A stretch of DNA of 33,452 nt from the IMG/VR virus record IMGVR_UViG_3300021963_000015, positions 1 to 33,452 of that record. One strand, given 5' to 3'. The position numbers and the translations under genes are program-made. Within the stretch, counting starts at the first letter, position 1. Every line of letters starts with the position of its first letter. Positions 8,910-33,452 of the stretch are shown here, piece after piece. The notes under the pieces were generated by a model. That model ran no database searches and was not told where the DNA came from. It saw only the letters and a program-made list of their open reading frames with translations. Source of the DNA: a virus.

Positions 8910-9788
8910 CTATCGGGTGCTGGTCGTCGTGAACGTCGCATCAATGACGCGGGTTTCTATTTTTTCATTTACAATCTTCACTAAGCTCAACTTCATCCAG
9001 TAACCGCCAAGCGGCTTCGGAGGTCTGCCTCTCTCAACGTGGAAGCCACCCACTCCGCCTGCATATTCCTCCTTGTACGTCGCAGTGCGTATTTGATGCA
9101 GTGGCCGCTGCCTCATCATGTAGTTGCTTCGGTTGAGGTAGCTGATGACGTTGACATGGTGGTACAGCTCGTGGACGTGACCTTGCCATGTGCAGTCGTA
9201 GCCTTCCACCATTGCCATGATCCTTTGATCTTGAATAACGCCCTTGGTCACTACGCCGCCTCCTCCTGATCCGTGGAAGTAGTGCATCGCAAAGCGTGTG
9301 TAGTGGGTGGTGTTCGGTGAATGGGCAAAGCCAAACAGTATCGCGCCGCCGTAACCGCCGAGTTGAACGTCACTTCCGCACTCGTGGTTTAGAAGCGTGA
9401 CGAACATCTGCAAGGCGTCGAACTCAACATTGCGGATCACGCTTGTTTCGTGGTTGCCGTAGCCGATCAGCGCGATGTGCTTGGCGTAGGGTTTGAACCA
9501 CTGCACCGCGTCGTTTACGACGGCTTGGAGGTAGTTGCCTTTATTATGTTCTGGCCGTATCTCATCCTTTCCCCTGCGAGGATCGCCTCTGCCCTGCATG
9601 AGGCAGAACGTGTCGCCGTTCATGATGATCTTTGCGCCTCTGCGCACGGCTTCGTCGAGGTGGCTTTTCAACAGGTCACGATCGCACTTCGGGTTGTCCC
9701 AATGCAGGTCGCTGACCAGCAGAAACTCCGCCTCCTTCCCTTCGCAGTCGAAGGTGTGAACATTCGCTGCGCGTCGGGTTATATTCAT
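8910..9788 (-). CDS. Calcineurin-like metallophosphoesterase
   Basis: 292 residues. The ordered metal-binding motifs of the family are visible: D-x-H in VSDLHWD (about 26-32), GD in NGDTF (about 57-61), GNHE (about 110-113), an H in a FHGSGGGG segment (about 170), and GHVHE (about 204-208). The substrate could be nucleotides, nucleic acid ends or phosphoproteins. It stands between holin and endolysin, an odd place for such an enzyme. Leader before ATG is AACCAATAGT, like early genes, so it may be expressed or acquired separately. Confidence 0.82.
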   Translation of the reverse strand: MNITRRAANVHTFDCEGKEAEFLLVSDLHWDNPKCDRDLLKSHLDEAVRRGAKIIMNGDTFCLMQGRGDPRRGKDEIRPEHNKGNYLQAVVNDAVQWFKPYAKHIALIGYGNHETSVIRNVEFDALQMFVTLLNHECGSDVQLGGYGGAILFGFAHSPNTTHYTRFAMHYFHGSGGGGVVTKGVIQDQRIMAMVEGYDCTWQGHVHELYHHVNVISYLNRSNYMMRQRPLHQIRTATYKEEYAGGVGGFHVERGRPPKPLGGYWMKLSLVKIVNEKIETRVIDATFTTTSTR

Positions 9789-9789
9789 A

Positions 9790-10086
9790 CTATTGGTTTG
9801 GTGGTGTGCTTTTTAGCAGCTTCATGATGCGCACCTCCAGCACCTCCGTGATCTTAACACCTGAAAATCCGACGATGAAGGCGAGGCCGTACTCAATGTT
9901 GGGCGCTTTTATGTTCAGTATTCCAATGATGACTGGCGCGATGTAGGTGGCAGATAGCGTGCCGCTAAGCACGGCGATCAGCTGCATTTTCCAGTTCTTC
10001 ATCTTGGGAGCCAGCAGTAGTGCGCCGAAGAAGCCGGCGATAGTTAGGCCGAGGTTGATGCCGATGGATTTGAGGAAGTCGATCAT
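9790..10086 (-). CDS. Putative holin
   Basis: 98 residues with about three hydrophobic segments (about 9-26, 34-57 and 66-80), a short charged loop (KMKNWK) and a basic C-terminus. This size and topology fits a class I-like holin that permeabilises the inner membrane. Position next to the lysis genes supports it. No family was recognised, so the call is from topology and context. Confidence 0.65.
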   Translation of the reverse strand: MIDFLKSIGINLGLTIAGFFGALLLAPKMKNWKMQLIAVLSGTLSATYIAPVIIGILNIKAPNIEYGLAFIVGFSGVKITEVLEVRIMKLLKSTPPNQ

Positions 10087-10088
10087 TG

Positions 10089-10355
10089 TTAATCTTCGTT
10101 TAGTGTGTTAGATACGTCGTCGCGCTCGGTGTAGTCCTTGCCGTACTGGTCATCCCAGCCGAGGAAGGTATGCACGCCTATTGGCGGAGGCCAGCACTCG
10201 AAGGGAAGGTAGGTCGGATCAGGCTCTCCATCCCAAAGGATGTCGACGCAATATGTACCATCAATGATGCCCAGCGGCACTACGAAGCCTTGCGGCACTG
10301 GTAGCGCTGTGAATGTCGCTTCGTTGGGGAAGGCGTATTTGCGAAAGGTCGGCAT
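10089..10355 (-). CDS. Small protein of tail-fibre cassette
   Basis: 88 residues with a FPNEATFTALPVP opening, GTYCVDILWDGEP (about 33-45) and PPPIGVHTFLG (about 56-66). This type of short, P/W-rich protein is regularly found beside tail fibre and lysis genes in Bacteroidetes phages (recollection). Function unknown. It starts one base after the stop of the tail fibre gene, implying coupled translation. Confidence 0.62.
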   Translation of the reverse strand: MPTFRKYAFPNEATFTALPVPQGFVVPLGIIDGTYCVDILWDGEPDPTYLPFECWPPPIGVHTFLGWDDQYGKDYTERDDVSNTLNED

Positions 10356-11825
10356 TTATAGTCGGGTTAATTCGGCGAGTTGGTCGTTAGATAGCCGTGT
10401 TGTGTAGAGTGCGGCGGCGCGGATGCGGTCGTTAAGTTGGGACAGCCCTTGAAATGTTGAGCCTAAATTTAATTTATTGCAAGCTGGTATTGTTGCCGTT
10501 AAATTTGATTGCACGTTTACGCTATTTATATACAACACGCACCCGCTTGTGCTATACGCTAAAGCTAATTTGAGCGTTCCAAATGTAACATTGCCAGTAA
10601 AAGATGCTTGCTCTGCTGATGCTGCCGTTACCCTTGTTATTATTGTTGTATCGCTACCAAAAGCAATAAGTATTCTATTTAAAGCAGTGTTATCAGTTAA
10701 CTCTATGACCCTTAAAGCCGTTTTAGCTCCTCGCTGAAAATCCACCTCCGCATACACCGTCCCCTCCATTTGCCCTATCAACCCACTCACGAGCGCCCCC
10801 GATGCGCTGATGACATCAGCGGCACGGCTTCCTGCTCCTGTCGTTGTGGGGATGTAGGTGGTCGCGACGCTGCCTGTTTCGAGCTGTGCGCCCCAAATGT
10901 ATGCAGTTAAGTTGAGCGCGCCCGATGCGGGAAAAGACACATCCCCGTTGCCTTCTGCCATACTAAATATAAGGTTACCACTCAAATCGCCTGATGCAAT
11001 AGTGTATGGTGCTGAAATAAGCCTATACCATCCATCTCCGTAATCTTGAACGCTTGCCCCTGCTGTTAATGCCGTGCCGCTGGCAAGGCTGAAATATGAA
11101 ATTGATGTGCCGCTTCCCCCTGTGTACGCCGTAAAACCAATAGCGCAAAAATTGAGAGGGTTGGTCGCTCCTGCCTTTACAAATAAACTAAAAGTATGCT
11201 GTCCTGCCGCAGTTACTGTCACTCCTGTGCCACCATAATAAGCGTACTGAGTGTTACCAGAGGCCGCACCACCAACGTACTTGGTTATGCTTCCGCTTGT
11301 TCCATCGGGTGCAAGAAAATCCGTGCTTCCTGTTGTTATCGTCATTCCTCCCGATGCCGCTGGCGTGTCCTGACCCGTCATAAATTGCACATTCCGTGCA
11401 AAATTCGTCGCACTCGGCTCAATCAAAGCCGCAGGGCAACCTCCGCCTATCGGGTAGTCCAAGCGAAGCACTCCCGAAGCCACACTCTCAATCAACCCGC
11501 TGCTATTTACGCGCGTCGCCGTTGTGTTGCGGCTCACGGTGAAACGCATCGTGCTGTCTTCCGCGACAAACGGCGGCACGTCTTGGTACAAGTTCCCCGC
11601 CTTGTAAAACTGCGGCACGATCAGCAGCGAAGGCGTGAACGGCAGTCCGTCCGTGTAGACCTCTTGACCTCGCGACACAAGGCAGCTTCCTGCCCCTGCG
11701 TTTTCATCTTCGACGCTTGCACCTGCGCCCTTTGCGCCTTCAAGCGCTGCCGACCACTGCGTTTTGTAGGGATTCGTGCCGTGCTGTGATATGAACGGCA
11801 ATCCGTAGCCGATACCTAAAGCCAT
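10356..11825 (-). CDS. Tail fibre / receptor-binding protein
   Basis: 489 residues. The N-terminus (1-40) probably attaches to the tail. The middle (about 90-335) has a glycine/serine/threonine-rich beta pattern ending in YIWGAQLETGSVATTYIPT (about 308-327), a hallmark of phage fibre carbohydrate-binding modules. The rest (about 340-489) resembles a concanavalin/LamG-like domain. The DNA for parts of the C-terminal domain (about 10445-10740) is noticeably AT-rich beside GC-rich flanks, consistent with host-range mosaicism. It probably recognises a cell-surface glycan. Confidence 0.8.
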   Translation of the reverse strand: MALGIGYGLPFISQHGTNPYKTQWSAALEGAKGAGASVEDENAGAGSCLVSRGQEVYTDGLPFTPSLLIVPQFYKAGNLYQDVPPFVAEDSTMRFTVSRNTTATRVNSSGLIESVASGVLRLDYPIGGGCPAALIEPSATNFARNVQFMTGQDTPAASGGMTITTGSTDFLAPDGTSGSITKYVGGAASGNTQYAYYGGTGVTVTAAGQHTFSLFVKAGATNPLNFCAIGFTAYTGGSGTSISYFSLASGTALTAGASVQDYGDGWYRLISAPYTIASGDLSGNLIFSMAEGNGDVSFPASGALNLTAYIWGAQLETGSVATTYIPTTTGAGSRAADVISASGALVSGLIGQMEGTVYAEVDFQRGAKTALRVIELTDNTALNRILIAFGSDTTIITRVTAASAEQASFTGNVTFGTLKLALAYSTSGCVLYINSVNVQSNLTATIPACNKLNLGSTFQGLSQLNDRIRAAALYTTRLSNDQLAELTRL

Positions 11826-12777: not shown

Positions 12778-13344
12778 TTAAAAGTAGTTGCGTCTGTTTT
12801 CCGGGTAGTCCAGCGGATCGCGATACCTGCCCCTGCGACCAAGCACCATCCCTGTCTGATACGCACTGTTGGCCGGGTAGATCGTGTCAATCGCAACTGG
12901 CGGGTTGTCGAACAGCGGGAACAGTGTGTGGTTCTCCTGAAGGTAGCGCGTGATGCGCTCGGTGTACCACTCCGCATCATCGCGGCTTTTGTCCATCAGC
13001 CGCGTCATCTCACGCTCGCTCATGCTGCTCGATTCCGTGCTGCTGCGCCTGTCCATCCCTTTATTCATAAACTTAAACGCCAAAACCATCGGCAGTTCAA
13101 AGTACATCCACTGAATTATCGCTGGCTGGATGTAGGTCTGCATCAGCGTCGTGTTGTTAGCCGTCAGCGTTCCGGCAATGACCTGCGTCACCAGTTCCGC
13201 GTATAGCGCCGATCCCACCGCTGGCTGAATGTGCATCTCCTGCACTTTCACAATGGTTGGACGTAGCTGCGTGTAGCTTACGTTCTCGCTAATGACCGAA
13301 TTTTCGATCAGCGTGTTTTCGCTTATAAATAGTGCCTTGCTCAT
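12778..13344 (-). CDS. Putative head-tail connector (DUF6712-like)
   Basis: 188 residues, mainly helical, with an IQPAVG segment (about 39-44) and a helical bundle that includes WMYFELPMVL (about 79-88). This resembles the adaptor-type protein encoded next to the portal in Bacteroidetes phages (DUF6712, from recollection). The start overlaps the portal stop as ATGA. A role as head completion or connector protein is inferred from size, helical content and position. Confidence 0.55.
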   Translation of the reverse strand: MSKALFISENTLIENSVISENVSYTQLRPTIVKVQEMHIQPAVGSALYAELVTQVIAGTLTANNTTLMQTYIQPAIIQWMYFELPMVLAFKFMNKGMDRRSSTESSSMSEREMTRLMDKSRDDAEWYTERITRYLQENHTLFPLFDNPPVAIDTIYPANSAYQTGMVLGRRGRYRDPLDYPENRRNYF

Positions 13345-15392
13345 TCGACGATTCTTTCAACTTGTGTACCTTTTTTGATCACCAACTGCTGCACCCACAT
13401 GTGCCGGCAGCTTGGCCTGTGCCTGCCATCTTCCAGTGTCAGCCAGCCGCCTCTGCGCTCCCAGACGCTGTAACCCATCAACGCCGTCAGCTGGTTAATG
13501 TCGTCGCGCGTGTATAGGCGTGCGCTGCTCAAGTCCATCATAACTTGGCAGAACTTGCGGCTCTTATCGTAGCCGTCAGCCTTGCTCAACCCCCGATATT
13601 CTGGCCGCCAGTCGTAGCGGTAGCGCACCTCGACAATCGGCTCTGGAACTTTCTCCTCTTTGGTCGCCTCACCAATGCCGCGCTTCAATGGATACTTGTT
13701 GACTTGCAGAAGGTACTGGATGCGCTTGCGGATGCGCGCCTTACTCACCCCGAACTCCTTGGCCATTTCTTCAACCGTTGCATCCTCGCGTTTGCGCCTG
13801 TATTTTACGATTTTGTCGTCCAGCGCCTTATCTTGGTCGGAAACGGCAAACTGCATGAAGAACTCCGCCTCGCCGTATTCGTTGAAGTCCAGTTCGCGTT
13901 CTTGCAGCACCTCGAAGCTTTCACGCGCCTCACCGAACTGCTGGCCAACTTGCGCGAGGAACTCCAGCTCATCAGCTTCATCGGTGAACGCCTGCTCCTT
14001 GACGCCCAGTAGCTGGTCAACCTGTTCCGGGTTAAGGCCGAAGCCAGCCGTCAGCATCGTGCGCGCCTGTTCGAGTGTGACCTTGCCTTGGGAGTAGTGG
14101 CGCACAATACGCATCAGGTTTTGATACTGCCTGCCTGAAAGCGTTTTAATAGCTTCATTTACGCCTACGCTGGCTTCTACGGTCGTTTCACCTGCGTCGG
14201 GTGTCGCCTCTGCAAGTGGCTCGTAGCCTGCCTTTTCGCGTAGTTCGTCCTGCGTCAAAATCTGCATCAGCGCCTGTTCGGAGAGCTGCTCGGTGATCGG
14301 ATCGAAAGGCTGCAGGTAGAGGCACTCGTAGCCGTTGAATGATGTTAGGTAGTTGATCATGCGCTCCACGATCAACACGCGATTCATGATGTAGGTGTTC
14401 TTGAACAGCTCGTAAGCCTCTGCCAGTTCCTTGCGGCCGCCAAGCTGCCCCTCTGTGCGAATGCCGAACAGCATTGGCGAGGTGACGTTGTGCGCTACAA
14501 AGATTTCCTCCTGAATCTGCTTGTTAAGCAGGTCAAACTGCTTATCCAAGTCCGAAGGCGTTAGCGACTGGATGCTCGGCGCATTTTCCTTGCCGGTGCT
14601 GAAGGTCAGCACGAAGCGCCCTGCGTTGTTTGCGCCGCTGAACTTGTTGCGCATCTGCCTCTCAATCTCTTGCTTTTCCTCGTCCGTCGGGATGCCATCA
14701 GCGAAGTTGATCATCTGCCCACCCCAAAACTGGTTGCGGATGTTGCTGATGTGGAACTTGGCAATCTCAACATCGCACTCAATGTATGCCAGCGCGCCCT
14801 GATAGTTTGGAAGTGGGTAGTGCTTGACCCCTGCTGCGTAGTGCCTGTAATAAAATAGCTGCTTGCCGACGCGGTTATTCGGGTCAAACTTGGGCATGCG
14901 CTCAACTTCCGCGCCCTTTGGGTACTGGCGGATCATGCGCTCATCGTACCAATCGGCAATTAGAAACATTGTGTCATCGAGCGACACGCGCACCTTTTCA
15001 AACGGCACGTGTTCAATAAACGCGATGCCGCCACCCCTGTTCCACGTCACTGCAAGTGCGAAGCCATTGAACAGCTCAAGATCCAAAACGAATTTTTGCG
15101 TCAGGTCGTTCAGGTCATCATCTTCGTTCACGTCAGCCATGAATGCCTCCGCCTTTGCCTGTTGCGCGACGGTAGTCTTATCTGCATCGACTGCCCAGCC
15201 TTTGCCAGCGATGTAGTTGCACTTGCCGTTGATGATGGCGTTGTGCTTGGCGCTTTTCTTGTATATGTCGAGCAAATAATATGGGTAGTCGTTCATCTCC
15301 CCAAACGTGTACAAGTCGTTAGCCTTCGATTGTAACATCAAAGGGTAGCGATAGTCTGCCTGTGGGATGAAGCTGAAATTGAGTTTAGTCAT
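13341..15392 (-). CDS. Portal protein with C-terminal extension
   Basis: 683 residues, longer than most portals (400-500). The first about 400 residues have the portal pattern: an N-terminal segment ending KWSA-like HNAIINGKCNYIAGKGW (about 51-67), a helical wing, and the PSIQ...DLLNKQIQEEIFVAHNV stretch (about 275-310) followed by a polymerising C-terminal helix. After about 400 an acidic helical linker leads to a HTH-like segment (KEFGVSKARIRKRI, about 552-565) and a terminal domain with RGGW and CRHMW motifs (about 650-672). The extension may contact the scaffold or protease. The portal forms the dodecameric DNA channel. It overlaps the next two genes slightly. Confidence 0.85.
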   Translation of the reverse strand: MTKLNFSFIPQADYRYPLMLQSKANDLYTFGEMNDYPYYLLDIYKKSAKHNAIINGKCNYIAGKGWAVDADKTTVAQQAKAEAFMADVNEDDDLNDLTQKFVLDLELFNGFALAVTWNRGGGIAFIEHVPFEKVRVSLDDTMFLIADWYDERMIRQYPKGAEVERMPKFDPNNRVGKQLFYYRHYAAGVKHYPLPNYQGALAYIECDVEIAKFHISNIRNQFWGGQMINFADGIPTDEEKQEIERQMRNKFSGANNAGRFVLTFSTGKENAPSIQSLTPSDLDKQFDLLNKQIQEEIFVAHNVTSPMLFGIRTEGQLGGRKELAEAYELFKNTYIMNRVLIVERMINYLTSFNGYECLYLQPFDPITEQLSEQALMQILTQDELREKAGYEPLAEATPDAGETTVEASVGVNEAIKTLSGRQYQNLMRIVRHYSQGKVTLEQARTMLTAGFGLNPEQVDQLLGVKEQAFTDEADELEFLAQVGQQFGEARESFEVLQERELDFNEYGEAEFFMQFAVSDQDKALDDKIVKYRRKREDATVEEMAKEFGVSKARIRKRIQYLLQVNKYPLKRGIGEATKEEKVPEPIVEVRYRYDWRPEYRGLSKADGYDKSRKFCQVMMDLSSARLYTRDDINQLTALMGYSVWERRGGWLTLEDGRHRPSCRHMWVQQLVIKKGTQVERIVE

Positions 15393-16197
15393 AAGAAACG
15401 TAGTCGATCGTGTTTGTTGTACTGGTGAAGCTGCCCTCCGTCGTTTCGATCATCGCAAGGCCTGTTTCAAGAACTCGCGGGTTCGTGGTTGGCAGCAGGA
15501 AGCGACGCATAGCACGCGTATGCCTATTCGTCTGCGACTTGTTATGCTGATTGAAATTACTGTTATTCATATCAATCGTGAACGCCTGCGTCGCTGATAC
15601 CTGCGTGGAACTCCAGTAGCTTTGATTGACGAAGCTGCCAATGCCTGCACTGGCAAGGTTTGTATACATTTCGGTCAGTTCCTCCAACGACGGCAGGAAC
15701 CAGTCGCTAAAACTGTTCAGCACCAGTTGATCTGCCAACCTTGCTGCGATGCCCGCGGTGGCGCAACCCGCGACAATAGATGCCGTGTTTATGACACCTT
15801 GACCAATCGCCTCGGGTGTCGCCCCTTCAGCTATCAGCGTCCCTTGGCAGCCCCACGGCGCGCTGCTCGACTGATCTACTGTCGCGGTAATGTAGGCATA
15901 ACCGCTGTCGGTAAATGTGTACAAGCCGCCCTGCACGAAGTCACCAGCGGCGTAGGTTGCTGGGTTCTCCGTGACCTCGTAGCGATACTGCCCCTTCGTC
16001 AACGCGCCCAAGGTAAACGCGAATTTGTCGTAGCGGCTTTCGTAGCTGCTTAGGTTGTCAATCGCGTTCAGGTAGATGTCAGTGGCTTCCAGCGTCGCCA
16101 AGTTCGTCAGCCGTAAGCGGTAGACCGTCGCGCTGTTCGCACGCTCGGTCCACGTCACCGCTATCGTGTTGCTCTGGCTGGCCTTGAGGTATAGCAT
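15385..16197 (-). CDS. Structural protein with inserted DUF1566 (C-type lectin-like) domain
   Basis: 270 residues. Residues 1-80 resemble a fibronectin-like beta domain and residues about 240-270 end with an ETGLAMIE...YVSY motif; these two parts form a compact structural protein in related phages. Between them (about 90-238) lies a DUF1566/Lcl C-terminal-like domain: GGLYTFTD, DWFLPSLEELTEMY (about 166-179), NQSYWSST (about 192-199) and a closing RHTRAMRRFL. This C-type lectin-like fold can bind ligands and is a known diversity-generating-retroelement target elsewhere. The last beta region is unusually Asn/Gln/Lys-rich. No reverse transcriptase is present. A late-type promoter precedes the gene. 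Confidence 0.68.
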   Translation of the reverse strand: MLYLKASQSNTIAVTWTERANSATVYRLRLTNLATLEATDIYLNAIDNLSSYESRYDKFAFTLGALTKGQYRYEVTENPATYAAGDFVQGGLYTFTDSGYAYITATVDQSSSAPWGCQGTLIAEGATPEAIGQGVINTASIVAGCATAGIAARLADQLVLNSFSDWFLPSLEELTEMYTNLASAGIGSFVNQSYWSSTQVSATQAFTIDMNNSNFNQHNKSQTNRHTRAMRRFLLPTTNPRVLETGLAMIETTEGSFTSTTNTIDYVSYD

Positions 16198-17281
16198 GAA
16201 GTTGTTTTATTGAAATATCCCTTGCCACGTTTTTGTACAAATTGAACCTGCGCCGCGTGATCTCATCAATGTCAAAGCGCTTCTGCATCTTCGCTGTCAG
16301 CCTGTCTGCCATCTCACGCACCATCGCTGGCTCGTTGATCATTGCCTTCATCGACTTGTACCACTTCTTCGGTTGCTTTTCGTCAACAAGCACGCCATCC
16401 CAGCCGTCGGTGATGCAGTCGGCATACATGCAGACGTTGCTGGCGATGATTGCCTTGTTCATCCACGCGGCTTCCGTCACCTTCAACTCCGACTTGAGCC
16501 TGTTGAACTTATTGTCGCGCAGAGGCGCAAGGGCAACATCAACGAAGTTGTAGCCTCCAACGTAGCTGTAAATATCAGCAGCTTGTATGCGTCCGTAGTT
16601 GTTGTTCTTGCCCTTGTTGCTGAACACCTGCTCATATTGCTGATATATCGGGTTGCCCTCATTCCACCCGGCAAGGTACAGCATGTAGCGCCCTTCCAGC
16701 GTGTGATCGTCGCAGAGGCGCGACAGTGGCAGCTCCAGCAACGCCACGTCCTCCGTGTGCTGCGCCGCGCCGAAGTAGCCAAAGCGCAGGCGCTCGCTCT
16801 TGGTCGGTTGTGGCTTAAATTGGTCATACAACAGGTGTGGCACGTTCTCGCATATGGTCGCGTTTCGGTTCAGCTTGACGATCTCATCGCGCAGGTACGT
16901 CGTAGTCGTGATGACCGCATCAGCAAGTTTGACGTGTTCAGCGACAATCGCAGACATGTTCGTGTCGTGGTAGTGCTTGTAGAAACTATGCCCAGTGCCA
17001 AGATGCCAGTAATCATCCATGTCCAAAATGATCTTCGCGCCGTACTGGCGCAGGATGTCAGCGACAGGCTTGACCGCCTCAATTGGCCCTGCAATCCAAG
17101 TGCGATTATACAGGAACACGTCGATCGTTCGCAGTTCTTCGTCGCTCATGGTGCGCACGTCAGCGATGCTCACGAACTCGGCCTCGCTGCCGAACATCTC
17201 ATGGACACGGCTGCTTGGCATCTCCAAGCGGTAATAGCTGCACCCGGTGGGATGCTGATTGTAGACGATACATACACGCAT
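16079..17281 (-). CDS. GT-B-like glycosyltransferase
   Basis: 400 residues. The N-terminal half has GT-B-like Rossmann features (RVCIVYNQHP start; LDMDDYWH at about 91; DAVITTTTYLRDEI at about 120). The C-terminal half has FGYFGAAQHTEDV (about 167) and the sugar-nucleotide-binding pattern KSELKVTEAAWMNKAIIAS (about 263-281), then DGWDGVLV. It may glycosylate virion proteins or modify a host glycan. The last about 40 residues overlap the 5' end of the next gene by 119 nt and look like out-of-frame sequence, so the original C-terminus may have been lost. It follows a terminator and a TAACTTTG box. Confidence 0.8.
   Translation of the reverse strand: MRVCIVYNQHPTGCSYYRLEMPSSRVHEMFGSEAEFVSIADVRTMSDEELRTIDVFLYNRTWIAGPIEAVKPVADILRQYGAKIILDMDDYWHLGTGHSFYKHYHDTNMSAIVAEHVKLADAVITTTTYLRDEIVKLNRNATICENVPHLLYDQFKPQPTKSERLRFGYFGAAQHTEDVALLELPLSRLCDDHTLEGRYMLYLAGWNEGNPIYQQYEQVFSNKGKNNNYGRIQAADIYSYVGGYNFVDVALAPLRDNKFNRLKSELKVTEAAWMNKAIIASNVCMYADCITDGWDGVLVDEKQPKKWYKSMKAMINEPAMVREMADRLTAKMQKRFDIDEITRRRFNLYKNVARDISIKQLHAIPQGQPEQHDSGDVDRACEQRDGLPLTADELGDAGSH
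16212..16240 (-). promoter_or_regulatory. Late-type promoter upstream of lectin-domain structural protein
   Basis: GATATTTC (16212-16219) with TTGTACA (16234-16240) exactly 14 nt upstream on the minus strand. It is the most divergent of the seven sites (one change in the downstream box). The ATG is 14 nt after it. It lies inside the 3' end of the glycosyltransferase gene. Confidence 0.6.
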
Positions 17282-17363: not shown

Positions 17364-17900
17364 TTACGATCCGCCAGTGATTTGCGTGCTACTTGTCAAA
17401 GCGGCGATTTTAGTTGAATCAACCTCGCTGCATGGCAATTCCTCCATACCTGTGAACGTCAACTCGTAGCCATTCCTGTCACCCATGGCAGTACCTGTCT
17501 GCGACGTGCCGCCGCTGACGTCAAGGCCGTTGCTCCTCCCCAGCAGCCAGTACTTGCCATTCCTATCGGTCACAATAGCCATCAGCCTGTTGAGGCCAAG
17601 GAGTCGCAACTCATTGCGCACGTTCTGCGCCATTCTGTTGATAGGAAAAACCAGCTCTTGCTGATAGAAGATAGTGCCGTTTTCCGTCGAGGCGTTGACA
17701 GTTTCGGTGAACTGCCCTGCACCTTTCGGCACTTCGTATTTGTAGAATCCCGAAGCGGGGAAAGTACCTGTCACCACGCCCGAAGCATCTACTGCAATCG
17801 TGCCGGTGACGCTGTTGAAAGCGATGAGGCGAACCTCCGTGATGCCACCGACATTGTCGCGGCATCCTAATTTATAACCAGTTGTTAAGGCGCAAGGCAT
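17364..17900 (-). CDS. Major tail tube protein
   Basis: 178 residues, beta-rich, with LTTGYKLGCRDNVGGI at the N-terminus, a FYKYEVPKGAGQFTETV strand pair (about 52-68), RLMAIVTDRNGKYWLLG (about 104-120) and a C-terminal GDRNGYELTFTGMEE segment (about 141-155). This order is familiar from major tail proteins of Bacteroidetes siphophages. Flanking terminators and the position just after the capsid gene fit an abundant structural subunit forming the tail tube. Confidence 0.72.
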   Translation of the reverse strand: MPCALTTGYKLGCRDNVGGITEVRLIAFNSVTGTIAVDASGVVTGTFPASGFYKYEVPKGAGQFTETVNASTENGTIFYQQELVFPINRMAQNVRNELRLLGLNRLMAIVTDRNGKYWLLGRSNGLDVSGGTSQTGTAMGDRNGYELTFTGMEELPCSEVDSTKIAALTSSTQITGGS

Positions 17901-17964: not shown

Positions 17965-18951
17965 TCAGCCTGCAGGTGTAGTCGCGTTAGACGCTTTATA
18001 CAACACCATCTGTTCAGGGAAGGCAAACTGCACACCGTACTTAAACGCCGCTTGGAAGCGCACTTGGTCATTGTCGTAGGATGCCCAAATGCGGAATTGA
18101 TCTTCGTCGCTCAATAAGTCCGTGCCGTAGTACAGGTTCTCAAGCGAAGTAGCAACGATCCTGCGCGTGTTGTTCATGCCATTCACCGCAACGACTTTCA
18201 GGTTCGTGCCGGGGAAGAACATCTCACCACCGCCAAGCTGTCCGAGGTCGCCTTGGAATAGGTTAACGCTGACCAATTTGTTAGCTAACAAACGATACAC
18301 GTCCCATCCGCAAAATGCAACAAGGTCAGGCCTGCTCACAATTGCGACAGGGATGTTTTGATATACGTTCTCAAAAGCCGAAACGATTGTCGCATCGCTG
18401 AACGCAGCACCTGCCAACGATGACACGATAGTAGCTGATGCCGTGGTTTTCTCCATAAGGTGCAGAAGTCCTACGGTCTTGTTCAACGTAGCGTCACCGC
18501 TTATTGTAGCCGACCCTCCAGTCCATCCAGACGCGCCTGTCGCCGATGTCGACTGCCAAATTGCAGTCTCGATGTTAGCGGCAATCTTCTTCGCCTTCTG
18601 CGTTGCAAAAGCCTGCTCAAACGGCACACCTTCGTAGTTGCTGCCCTGTGTCAACTGGGTGGCAAGCCACTTTGTTTCCATCTCACGAGGGCACAACTCC
18701 TCCTGCACCTTGACACGCGCAACGCTGATGACGCGCTGGCTGAATGACGTTGTGCCGCTGGCTGCCCACGCGCATGCTGTGGCGGATTGAAACACGGCGT
18801 CGGTGTCCATAAGGTTCAACGCCTCTTGATTTTTTACGCCCACGCGCTTCTGCATGAGCGACTGCGTTTTTGCGTCGAAAACGGCAGTAGTCAACAACGG
18901 GAGCTTATTCTGCTCTACGTAGTCGGTTAGTCCTGAAATTGAAAATGACAT
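17965..18951 (-). CDS. Major capsid protein (HK97-like)
   Basis: 328 residues. Helical N-terminus (1-60), an E/K-rich segment at about 80-125 typical of the P-domain spine, a S/G-rich loop (about 136-150), P-domain residues such as NVYQNIPVAIV (about 195-205) and a C-terminal FRIWASYDNDQVRFQAAFKYGVQFAFPE stretch (about 287-314) that closes like other phage capsid proteins. Position directly after protease and scaffold genes confirms the call. Terminator downstream. Confidence 0.85.
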   Translation of the reverse strand: MSFSISGLTDYVEQNKLPLLTTAVFDAKTQSLMQKRVGVKNQEALNLMDTDAVFQSATACAWAASGTTSFSQRVISVARVKVQEELCPREMETKWLATQLTQGSNYEGVPFEQAFATQKAKKIAANIETAIWQSTSATGASGWTGGSATISGDATLNKTVGLLHLMEKTTASATIVSSLAGAAFSDATIVSAFENVYQNIPVAIVSRPDLVAFCGWDVYRLLANKLVSVNLFQGDLGQLGGGEMFFPGTNLKVVAVNGMNNTRRIVATSLENLYYGTDLLSDEDQFRIWASYDNDQVRFQAAFKYGVQFAFPEQMVLYKASNATTPAG

Positions 18952-26120: not shown

Positions 26121-26826
26121 TACGGCATCGCCTTCATCAGCAACAGCGCGTTCATGAACTCCCTTGCCGGCATATTGAAGACCTGATCCATGCGCAGCGG
26201 ATCTTTTCCGGCCATACGGTAGACCACACCCACCCAGCCGTAGTTCGGCTTCTTTACGCCTTGGCCGTTGTCGTCGTCGTCCCCTGCTCCGTCAAAGACC
26301 TCCGCGTAATCGTCAACAAAGGCTCTGAAAGCTGCAAAAAAAAAGCGGCATAACCCCAAACGTCACCCATGTTCATCTGCAACATCGCCTCTGCGCGCTG
26401 CTTATGCCCCTTGCCGTCGTATGCCTTCGGCCACCACTTCCACACCCTGCACTCCCTCGAAAGCGTCGCCAAGATCAGGTGCAAGTTGTCAATCACCCCC
26501 TGCTCGCTGCTCATGTCGTAGCTGTACAACTCCACAAGCTGCCCTGCGCTGATTTCGTCAATGAACCACTCAAATTGATACCACTTTCCGGCGACCTTGG
26601 CGTGACGCTTGGCAGCCAGTGACGATAGCGATTTGCTCGCGGCGTTGATCTCTCCGTAGCGCTTGTTGACCTCTGCAATCGTCATCTTCTTGACTTGCTC
26701 AATCGGCAGGTTGTCAATAACTGCAACTACGCCGATCTTTTTGTCGCTGGCCGTGTAGATGCTGTTCGCCTCAATCGACACAATGCGCTGGAACTGGTCG
26801 ACGGTGATTTTGTTCAGTAGGCTCAT
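26120..26826 (-). CDS. Tail assembly chaperone, long form by -1 frameshift
   Basis: Predicted 235-residue fusion, like lambda gpG-T: residues 1-163 from the frame that starts at 26826, then 72 residues from the -1 frame ending at 26120. The added part carries an acidic DDDDN run, NYGWVGVVYRMAGKDP and a closing NMPAREFMNALL, which looks like real conserved protein, while the frame-0 tail after the slip is T-rich and low in complexity. The slip occurs on the T9 run at 26336-26344. Such chaperones bind the tape measure during tail assembly. Confidence 0.75.
26254..26826 (-). CDS. Tail assembly chaperone, short form (frame 0)
   Basis: 190 residues in the zero frame: helical, with VDQFQRIVSIEA near the start, and a T-run tail after residue 163. 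This is the gpG-equivalent that should be made in excess over the frameshift product. Its start overlaps the methyltransferase stop as ATGA. Family identity comes from the frameshift layout and position rather than a domain I recognise. Confidence 0.7.
   Translation of the reverse strand: MSLLNKITVDQFQRIVSIEANSIYTASDKKIGVVAVIDNLPIEQVKKMTIAEVNKRYGEINAASKSLSSLAAKRHAKVAGKWYQFEWFIDEISAGQLVELYSYDMSSEQGVIDNLHLILATLSRECRVWKWWPKAYDGKGHKQRAEAMLQMNMGDVWGYAAFFLQLSEPLLTITRRSLTEQGTTTTTAKA
26336..26346 (-). promoter_or_regulatory. Programmed -1 frameshift slippery site
   Basis: On the minus strand GCT TTT TTT TTG in frame 0: nine consecutive T at 26336-26344. Slipping back one base on T TTT TTT places the ribosome in the frame of the C-terminal extension. 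A run this long slips readily without a structure; no clear downstream hairpin was identified. Confidence 0.75.
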
Positions 26827-27410
26827 GACAGCAGCTTTTGTATTTTCTCAAACGTCGCCTCGCTTTGCGTCCACACACCCAGACCGTGTGAGTGTTCGAA
26901 GTTGTGTTTATACCCCTGCAACTCTGCAAAGAACCTGCCAACATCGTGCGGGAAGCTGATCGTATCGTGAAACAAAACGACGCCATCAGGGTTGAGGAAT
27001 GGCAGCCAAGTCGTGTAGTCGTTCTTGACCGCGTTGTAGGTGTGCAGGCCGTCTATGTGCAGGATGTCGATCTTCTTCTCCCAGCGCTTGGCCACGTCGT
27101 CGAAGTAGCCTTTGATGAAGTATAGGTTCTTCATATTCAACGTCGCCCGGAAGTCTTCGCGCAAACCCATGACGTGGTCGTATGTGCTGCGCCTCCCTGC
27201 GTGTTCGTCGCCCTCAAATGAATCAATGCCGTACACCTTGCCGAATCCAAGCACCGCAAAGCAAAAGGTTGAGAATCCGTAGTCAACGCCAAGGTCGACA
27301 GTCACCTTCGGCTTAAGTGCCTCGGTTAGGTTTATCGCAAAGTTGCCGTGCCCCTCCCACGCCGTTGGCTTGGCAAGGATCATCTGATAGAAGTGTTTGA
27401 CTGCGTGCAT
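26823..27410 (-). CDS. Class I SAM-dependent methyltransferase (Methyltransf_24-like)
   Basis: 195 residues. SAM-binding motif I is VDLGVDYGFSTF (about 38-49), followed by VYGIDSFEGDE (about 59-69) and IDILHIDGLHTYNAVKNDY (about 114-132) with HDT at about 149. The pattern fits the Methyltransf_24 group, which mostly modifies small molecules or sugars. No DNA-methylase catalytic motif (DPPY-type or PC) was seen, so genome modification is not supported. It sits between terminase and tail chaperone, unusual for this enzyme type. Confidence 0.82.
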   Translation of the reverse strand: MHAVKHFYQMILAKPTAWEGHGNFAINLTEALKPKVTVDLGVDYGFSTFCFAVLGFGKVYGIDSFEGDEHAGRRSTYDHVMGLREDFRATLNMKNLYFIKGYFDDVAKRWEKKIDILHIDGLHTYNAVKNDYTTWLPFLNPDGVVLFHDTISFPHDVGRFFAELQGYKHNFEHSHGLGVWTQSEATFEKIQKLLS

Positions 27411-31920: not shown

Positions 31921-33368
31921 GCGAATAGTGGTTGGCCGTGATCGTTTTTAAGTTCCTGCAGGAAGAAGAAGTACCCCATGCGGTAACCGCACAAATTTAG
32001 CAATTTCTTTGCGGTTTGTTTGTCCTTAATGATGTTATGAAGCACCCAGTGCAGCTTGATTTTCTTAAGCTTAATCAATGCCGCCACTTCTTCCAGTGTT
32101 GCCTGCTTCGCCATGTTTCGGTAGTCGATTGGTGTGTAGTTTCCGTTGATCTGCAAGATGACTTCTTCACCCATCTCCCCGACTTTGACTGGCGCGACGT
32201 AGCCGCACGCAGGGCAAGTCGTCAGCGACGTGTGCATCATATACCCGCACTTCCTGCAGTTCTTCTGCGGTGCAATGCCTTTGCTTTTCTTGGCTTTTTT
32301 CTCCAGCTTCCAAACGCGGTCAAACTCCCACGCCTTGTGCTGCTCCCTGTTGTTTCCAAAATCCAGTATGGTAAACTCCTTCTTAGTCTGCGTCACCCGG
32401 CTGCCTCTGCCGCACATCTGCAAGTATAGCGGCAGTGACTTTGTCGCCCGGTAGAGGATTACGACTTCCACGTTTGGATCGTCGAAGCCAGTGGTTAGGA
32501 TGCCGCAGTTGCACAGGATGCCGTTTGCACTTGCCTTAAACCACGCCAGCACCTCCTGTCGTTCATCAGGCTTCATCGTGCTATCGAGATGCCTCGCTGG
32601 CAGCCCTGCGCCTTGCAGCTCGCTGCATAGCTCCTTACTCGACGCGATACTTGGCGCAAATGCCAGTGCCTTCTTGCCGTTGCAGTAAAGGAGATAGTTG
32701 GCTATGACACCGCGAAAGACTTTCTGCTTGCTGTACGCCGCACCCAGTTGCGCCGCGTCGTAGTCGCCGTTATAGGTTCGCACTCCGGTCAAGTCTACTG
32801 GCACGCTGTACGTCGTCGGCGTTGCGAGGTATCCGTCGTCTATCAACTCGCGGATGGTGACAGGATCGACTATTTTCGTGTAAAACTCCTTCAACGCCTT
32901 TTGGTTGCCTTCGCGATGCGGCGTTGCTGTCGCGCCTATGACCGTTGCTTTTTCTGGTATGTAGGCAAAGAGTTTGTCGAAGCTGCCTTTGTGCGCTTCG
33001 TCGATGATTACGAGGTCAATGTCCTGCATCATCTTTTCGTATTCCGCCTTTGCCATTCGTCTGTTCAGCGATTCAATCATCGCGATGTAGCATGTTGATT
33101 GTTGCAGTTTTGCTTTGCCTTGCTTGATGGCTATTGGTGAAACGTCAAAGCGTGTGAGTGCGCCGTCTGTTTGCGTCAAAAGTTCAACGCGGTCTGTGAC
33201 GATTAGCACGTTCTTGCGTTTGTTCAATGCGAACTGAACCATTGCGCTGAACATTACCGTCTTCCCTGCACCTGTTGGAGCGCACAGGATCACGCGCCTG
33301 TTGCCCTCGCCAATGGCAACGCGCAACTGCTCGATGGCTTTTTGCTGATATGGTCGGAGTGTAGTCAC
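31833..33368 (-). CDS. DEAD/DEAH-box helicase with zinc ribbon
   Basis: 511 residues from a GTG at 33368. Superfamily 2 motifs: LRPYQ (4-8), Walker A APTGAGKT (about 30-37), IIDEAH (about 117-122), GATATP (about 146-151), GILTTGFDDP (about 287-296) and QMCGRGSR (about 313-320). A CRKCGY...CPACGY zinc ribbon lies at about 378-397. A TTG at 33431 would extend it by 21 residues, but it lies in a terminator loop; the GTG follows an early-type leader (ACAAACCAACTACAA) and starts the typical MTTLRPYQ. Likely replication or repair helicase; its 3' end overlaps the nuclease gene. Confidence 0.9.
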   Translation of the reverse strand: MTTLRPYQQKAIEQLRVAIGEGNRRVILCAPTGAGKTVMFSAMVQFALNKRKNVLIVTDRVELLTQTDGALTRFDVSPIAIKQGKAKLQQSTCYIAMIESLNRRMAKAEYEKMMQDIDLVIIDEAHKGSFDKLFAYIPEKATVIGATATPHREGNQKALKEFYTKIVDPVTIRELIDDGYLATPTTYSVPVDLTGVRTYNGDYDAAQLGAAYSKQKVFRGVIANYLLYCNGKKALAFAPSIASSKELCSELQGAGLPARHLDSTMKPDERQEVLAWFKASANGILCNCGILTTGFDDPNVEVVILYRATKSLPLYLQMCGRGSRVTQTKKEFTILDFGNNREQHKAWEFDRVWKLEKKAKKSKGIAPQKNCRKCGYMMHTSLTTCPACGYVAPVKVGEMGEEVILQINGNYTPIDYRNMAKQATLEEVAALIKLKKIKLHWVLHNIIKDKQTAKKLLNLCGYRMGYFFFLQELKNDHGQPLFACLQSSDFNPSASSITGITTKQSADYSLR

Positions 33369-33452
33369 TTGTAGTTGGTTTGTAGTAGGTTTTTTGCAAG
33401 ATAAGTTACTACAAAAAAACGGCCTTTGCAATATCGTGAAGGGCGTTTTTTG
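33326..33452. repeat. Right copy of 127-bp terminal direct repeat
   Basis: Exact copy of 1-127. It contains the helicase start, the TTTGTAGTAG/TTACTACAAA repeats (33379-33388, 33406-33415) and the terminator hairpin at 33413-33451. Joining the two copies closes the genome into a 33,325-bp circle. Confidence 0.93.

Follow-up and report, generated by a model that had tools for sequence, protein, structure and literature searches.

A predicted C-type-lectin-like domain inserted in a small portal-adjacent phage protein, and its apparent exchange as a cassette between related phages

The lectin-insert gene and its neighbourhood

The window, that is the whole 33,452-nt stretch of DNA that was analysed, is an entire IMG/VR virus record that carries an exact 127-nt direct repeat at its two ends (1-127 = 33326-33452), and because of these repeats the assembly, of 33,325 bp, is judged to be probably circular and complete. 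Nearly all large open reading frames (ORFs) lie on the minus strand, and these follow the order terminase, tape-measure-like, capsid-like, PHROG 19091 gene, glycosyltransferase, lectin-insert gene and portal, followed by the tail genes. The position of the portal and lectin-insert genes (Table 1) corresponds to the gene order of Nonlabens phage P12024S. The host probably belongs to the Bacteroidota, since the portal matches those of Nonlabens phages P12024S/L and of a Bacteroides phage. The glycosyltransferase ORF overlaps the 5' end of the lectin-insert gene by 119 nt (16079-16197) in a different frame, and synonymous change in residues 1-40 may therefore be lowered; the overlap is absent from the relative L062, where the genes lie at 8925-9995 and 10001-10807.

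Several other genes have features of their own. The portal protein (683 aa) is extended at its C-terminus, where it weakly matches helix-turn-helix domains, and may be a fusion, and a Methyltransf_24 gene (26823-27410, E 2.4e-21) sits among the structural genes. The PHROG 19091 gene (17364-17900) and the capsid-like gene (17965-18951) occur in relatives as divergent alleles on otherwise about 90% identical backbones (for the capsid-like gene, for example, 64-69% vs 88-94% nucleotide identity), and the tail protein encoded at 10356-11825 (PHROG 5939) shares 39-90% amino-acid identity between close relatives.

Table 1. Positions of the lectin-insert gene, its parts and its two neighbours in the window
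Feature	Position	Strand	Evidence
Glycosyltransferase gene	16079..17281	(-)	Pfam Glyco_trans_1_4; PHROG 7162 glycosyltransferase, E 5e-40
Lectin-insert gene	15385..16197	(-)	ORF of 270 aa with ATG start; scaffold, lectin-like insert, scaffold
N-terminal scaffold, residues 1-83	15949..16197	(-)	54/83 identical to insert-free L185; 42% to L334 (other insert)
Insert, residues ~84-240, DUF1566/Lcl-type, C-type-lectin-like	15478..15948	(-)	missing in L185; AF2 pLDDT 94.7; 8q4e Z 15.4; PHROG 4245
Asn/Gln/Lys/His-rich last strands, residues 203-227	15517..15591	(-)	12/25 residues N/Q/K/H; variable sites without A bias
C-terminal scaffold end, residues 241-270 (ETGLAMIETTEG...)	15388..15477	(-)	25/31 identical to L185 over residues 240-270
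Portal protein gene	13341..15392	(-)	8-nt overlap with the 3' end of the lectin-insert gene; PHROG 33693 portal, E 1.2e-36

Scaffold, insert and the states of the insertion site

Comparison with L185, a relative whose portal is 91% identical to that of the window, resolves the protein into a scaffold of about 114 aa that is interrupted by a DUF1566/Lcl-type domain of about 157 aa. L185 encodes a 114-aa homologue without the lectin domain (L185:1381-1725), which aligns to window residues 1-83 and 240-270; the two flanks were aligned separately, since MAFFT put the L185 C-terminus in the wrong place. The N-terminal domain and the C-terminal end are, on this sequence evidence, one small protein split by an insert, a statement made from the L185 sequence and not from a structure model: an AF2 run on the whole protein with 34 relatives was poor (pLDDT 50.8), and nothing is drawn from it.

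Sequence profiles and modelling converge on the nature of the insert. The Pfam family Lcl_C (PF07603, formerly DUF1566) matches residues 152-231 with E 3.8e-6 and 27.6 bits, below its curated cut-off of 34.9 bits, and it matches all 10 of the 10 family members that we selected at E<=0.01 (best 1.7e-9); PHROG 4245 matches residues 76-233 (E 7e-21). An AF2 model of residues 77-239, built on a 41-sequence alignment including viral homologues at 23-45% identity, is of high confidence (Table 1; pTM 0.91). Its best match among solved structures is the C-terminal domain of Legionella Lcl (PDB 8q4e; Foldseek E 1.5e-7; tabulated Z from VIA, rmsd 2.5, 121 aligned), which is also matched by sequence profile (E 3.2e-18), followed by the Bacteroides ovatus fimbrial protein 4eps (Z 12.2) and a Bdellovibrio domain (Z 11.0), while snake-venom and mammalian C-type lectins match at Z of about 7-9. 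The prediction of a C-type lectin (CLec) fold is well supported because a confident model and these structure matches agree. A motif check of the 270-aa protein found none of EPN, QPD and WND; EPN/QPD and WND are the canonical motifs of Ca-dependent sugar-binding C-type lectins. Legionella Lcl is described as likewise devoid of the expected Ca/carbohydrate motifs (PMC11162425).

The sequence-only reading of this locus, which proposed a DUF1566 domain inserted in a compact small protein whose two ends belong together, is borne out on the two points at which it could have failed, in that a CLec fold is predicted and the insert boundaries match insert-free L185. It also held that the last strands are unusually rich in Asn, Gln, Lys and His, and saw in this a hint of retroelement diversification. 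The richness stands (Table 1), but the composition is largely family sequence; N211, N212, H218, K220 and N224, for example, are invariant or nearly so among 34 aligned relatives.

The insertion site can be filled differently. L334 (55% portal identity to L185) encodes at the same place a 300-aa homologue with a related N-domain (Table 1) and a matching C-terminal end; its residues 86-277 match PHROG 5939 'tail protein' (E 1.6e-14), a family also matched by the window's tail protein 10356-11825, with which the L334 insert aligns by BLASTP at E 9e-6. Searches with the L334 insert gave no Pfam match and no significant PDB sequence match. A portal-seeded search returned 80 loci, 9 of which start at the contig end and 1 more is too short; of the 70 with enough upstream sequence, 68 have a lectin gene before the portal, and the other two are L185 and L060, where the homologue (L060:1592-2397) is broken after residue 49 by decay (a frameshift) or sequencing error. 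When 310 loci were merged to 85 distinct genes and the 7 cut by a contig end were removed, 78 complete genes with an N-domain start remained, comprising 75 with the Lcl insert, 1 empty (L185), 1 tail-type (L334) and 1 broken (L060); these are not population frequencies because the searches started from lectin, scaffold and portal sequences, and the empty and alternative-insert states are each represented by one contig. One comparison used 71 of 80 loci and another 71 of 80 portal loci, and a motif-anchored set lost the 2 of 34 loci without the motif.

Beyond these metagenomic relatives little was found. A tblastn search of phages and plasmids gave no match at E 1e-5; relaxed to E 10 it returned 32 phage records, each with <60% identity. 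The N-domain alone gave one chance-level match, and its PHROG matches to the short families 5910, 19594 and 13566 were weak (E 0.005-0.13) and set aside; a PDB match to the decoration protein P04 (8phs) was at chance level (E 0.99). A scan of bacterial genomes gave no match, a further scan one weak 32-residue match to a WOR-3 contig (E 1e-4), and a defence library none.

Variation of the insert and its exchange between phages

A portal tree of 43 phages resolves three backbones (A, B and C), each one clade; its rows are 43 of 44 selected by portal length from 83 aligned genes, L003 being left out for its short portal. The insert tree differs: backbone C as one clade is rejected (AU p 1e-50), and backbone A as one clade is not rejected at 0.05 (AU p 0.06). 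Compared with the window, the glycosyltransferase and portal genes of clade A have about 85-95% DNA identity and few amino-acid changes, and the insert has 68-88% in its front and 53-94% in its tail; synonymous divergence is raised alongside nonsynonymous divergence, which fits the import of divergent alleles. The broken gene of L060 is aberrant in this comparison. Among 23 phages of the same backbone (clade A; 253 pairs) identity ranges over 85.9-96.5% for portals and 63.7-100% for inserts, and the two have a correlation of 0.07.

In eight of these 23 phages (L046, L049, L050, L051, L054, L055, L057 and L061) the insert core (codons 84-207) is base-for-base identical and the portals are 86.3-96.5% identical. 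The exact tracts of their 28 pairs, which are not independent, start at residues 66-84 in 26 and end at residues 217-231 in 27, and a reciprocal case is provided by L018/L025 and L049/L061, which share residues 1-76 exactly and have different inserts. Exchange breakpoints cluster near the junctions of scaffold and head. Across these genus-level backbones, L032 (A) shares an exact tract of 387-388 nt (codons 80-208) with L041, L043 and L044 (C), from which it differs in its portal (60% identical) and glycosyltransferase gene (55%); the same tract recurs in L033 (A) and in L042 and L045 (C). Moreover, in L035, L037 and L039 (C) scaffold and insert are 70-90% identical to those of the window on a backbone of 53-64%, and L139 and L141 (C) hold B-like modules. 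Short-read assemblies can mis-join at identical tracts that exceed the k-mer, and the common tracts might on this account be assembly chimeras; we regard this as very improbable, since both flanks of each contig are of the same backbone (nucleotide identity to the window: L032 glycosyltransferase 87%, portal 89%; L041 glycosyltransferase 57%, portal 53-62%) and each version turns up repeatedly (five contigs for backbone C, two for backbone A), no two of these contigs having the same IMG/VR sample number. To judge from these sequence comparisons, the insert varies by recombination between related phages.

Bimodal or mosaic patterns are found elsewhere too, in the tail protein 10356-11825, in 17364-17900, in the capsid-like gene and in others; the lectin-insert gene is therefore one of several hot spots. 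This bears on a rival account in which the head-swapping is part of a mosaicism common to the whole phage group, the insert having no special role and being a structural ornament (a capsid or tail decoration serving stability or trimer formation), and the Legionella domain is indeed reported to form a trimer as well (PMC11162425). We consider the account unlikely but not negligible, because across six phages of the same backbone the immediate neighbours (glycosyltransferase, portal and 12778-13344) are uniformly 94-99% identical in amino acids vs 79-92% for the lectin-insert gene, and because the breakpoints fall at domain junctions.

In phages the C-type lectin fold is best known as a scaffold of retroelement hypervariation. 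DUF1566 is common among the targets of such retroelements (DGRs; PMC4159848, PMC6642488, PMC8143477): it is described as the commonest Pfam domain of DGR targets in human microbiomes, with 47 proteins (PMC4159848), and as a DGR target in Bacteroides phages F1, F2 and F4 (PMC8143477). With the Asn-rich last strands this would suit diversification of the lectin domain by a DGR, whether in cis or in trans from the host, which on the following evidence we hold to be scarcely credible. The reverse transcriptase profile RVT_1 has no match in the window record, which looks complete, and none in 46 + 46 related records or in L185, L334 and L160, most of these 95 being fragments; the same search finds it in the DGR phage Bacteroides F4. 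The best template-repeat candidate in the window has 11 non-A mismatches in 60 nt and five codon shuffles give 8-11, whereas the same scan of F4 returns a clean template with 0 non-A mismatches in 60 nt. In the Asn-rich stretch of 23 distinct clade-A genes, 13/28 A sites are variable vs 35/47 non-A sites, which makes A the least variable base, and the raised synonymous divergence speaks against a DGR as well. The retroelement idea is not supported.

Proposed role and comparison with known systems

We favour, with moderate confidence, a virion-displayed adhesin with exchangeable heads: a small structural (head-neck or tail-attached) protein whose scaffold of about 114 aa would present a C-type-lectin-like head through a permissive loop. 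This reading is based on the homology to an adhesin domain, the pattern of exchange and the place near the portal. We infer from gene order that the protein sits on the virion, and the head may bind a cell-surface glycan of the (probably Bacteroidota) host; homology to Legionella Lcl makes both location and binding plausible. Recombination in co-infected cells could use the conserved scaffold sequence that flanks the head as its region of homology and so swap the head as a cassette; a phage might thereby alter its binding specificity with its assembly interface unchanged, and selection for host range or adhesion may keep the exchange going. More tentatively, the locus could be a dedicated display socket, in which a loop of a small portal-adjacent protein may stay empty or accept either a C-type lectin or a tail-fibre-type domain, and heads are traded across phage genera through the homologous flanks of the scaffold, yielding lectin diversity of the retroelement kind without a retroelement.

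Receptor-binding and neck proteins are already known to shuffle domains; new here are an internal socket, seen empty or filled by a lectin or a tail-type domain, and the variation of a DUF1566 lectin fold by recombination. The fold best known in phages for retroelement hypervariation is here exchanged as a cassette by recombination; the junctions are mapped, and a relative of the tiny protein has the site empty. If this is a virion protein, the site would be a natural fusion site for domain display on the phage particle, and the locus offers a testable case of phages of different genera drawing on one pool of adhesin heads. Among open-licence papers, none was found that describes a portal-adjacent phage protein with DUF1566 as its exchanged insert.

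The closest structural parallel, the Lcl C-terminal domain, is alike in its CLec-type fold and its polar, basic last strands. Lcl is described as a bacterial adhesin that carries the domain C-terminally behind a collagen stalk (PMC11162425), whereas the phage domain is an internal insert; the trimer and glycosaminoglycan binding are properties of Lcl. The DGR target of Bacteroides uniformis phage F4 belongs to the same DUF1566 family, in a phage, and has the pattern YWSST..A.....N.G in common; F4 possesses a reverse transcriptase, Avd and a template repeat, none of which is found in the window. Porphyromonas phage005a (BK068088), a Bacteroidota phage, has an annotated DUF1566 C-type lectin fold protein with 27.6% identity over residues 85-233 (E 8e-3); no common scaffold was seen between the two proteins, and the phage005a gene lies on the strand opposite to the head and tail genes. 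In Nonlabens phage P12024S the corresponding place, with the PHROG 19091 gene on one side and the portal gene on the other, is taken by gp05 (125 aa); this protein lacks an Lcl domain and shows no sequence kinship that could be detected, so it was rejected as an insert-free homologue and is a positional counterpart only.

Domain exchange is described as concentrated in phage neck and receptor-binding proteins, some of which carry carbohydrate-binding domains (PMC10684548), and the lectin-insert gene likewise displays recent domain exchange on a conserved base. In the neck passage structure and receptor-binding proteins, too, a conserved part is reported to be kept and the head swapped between related phages, with the gene near the portal (PMC10684548). 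The exchanged domain of those proteins is described as C-terminal, whereas that of the window protein is internal, in a tiny scaffold in which one site has empty, CLec and tail-type states.
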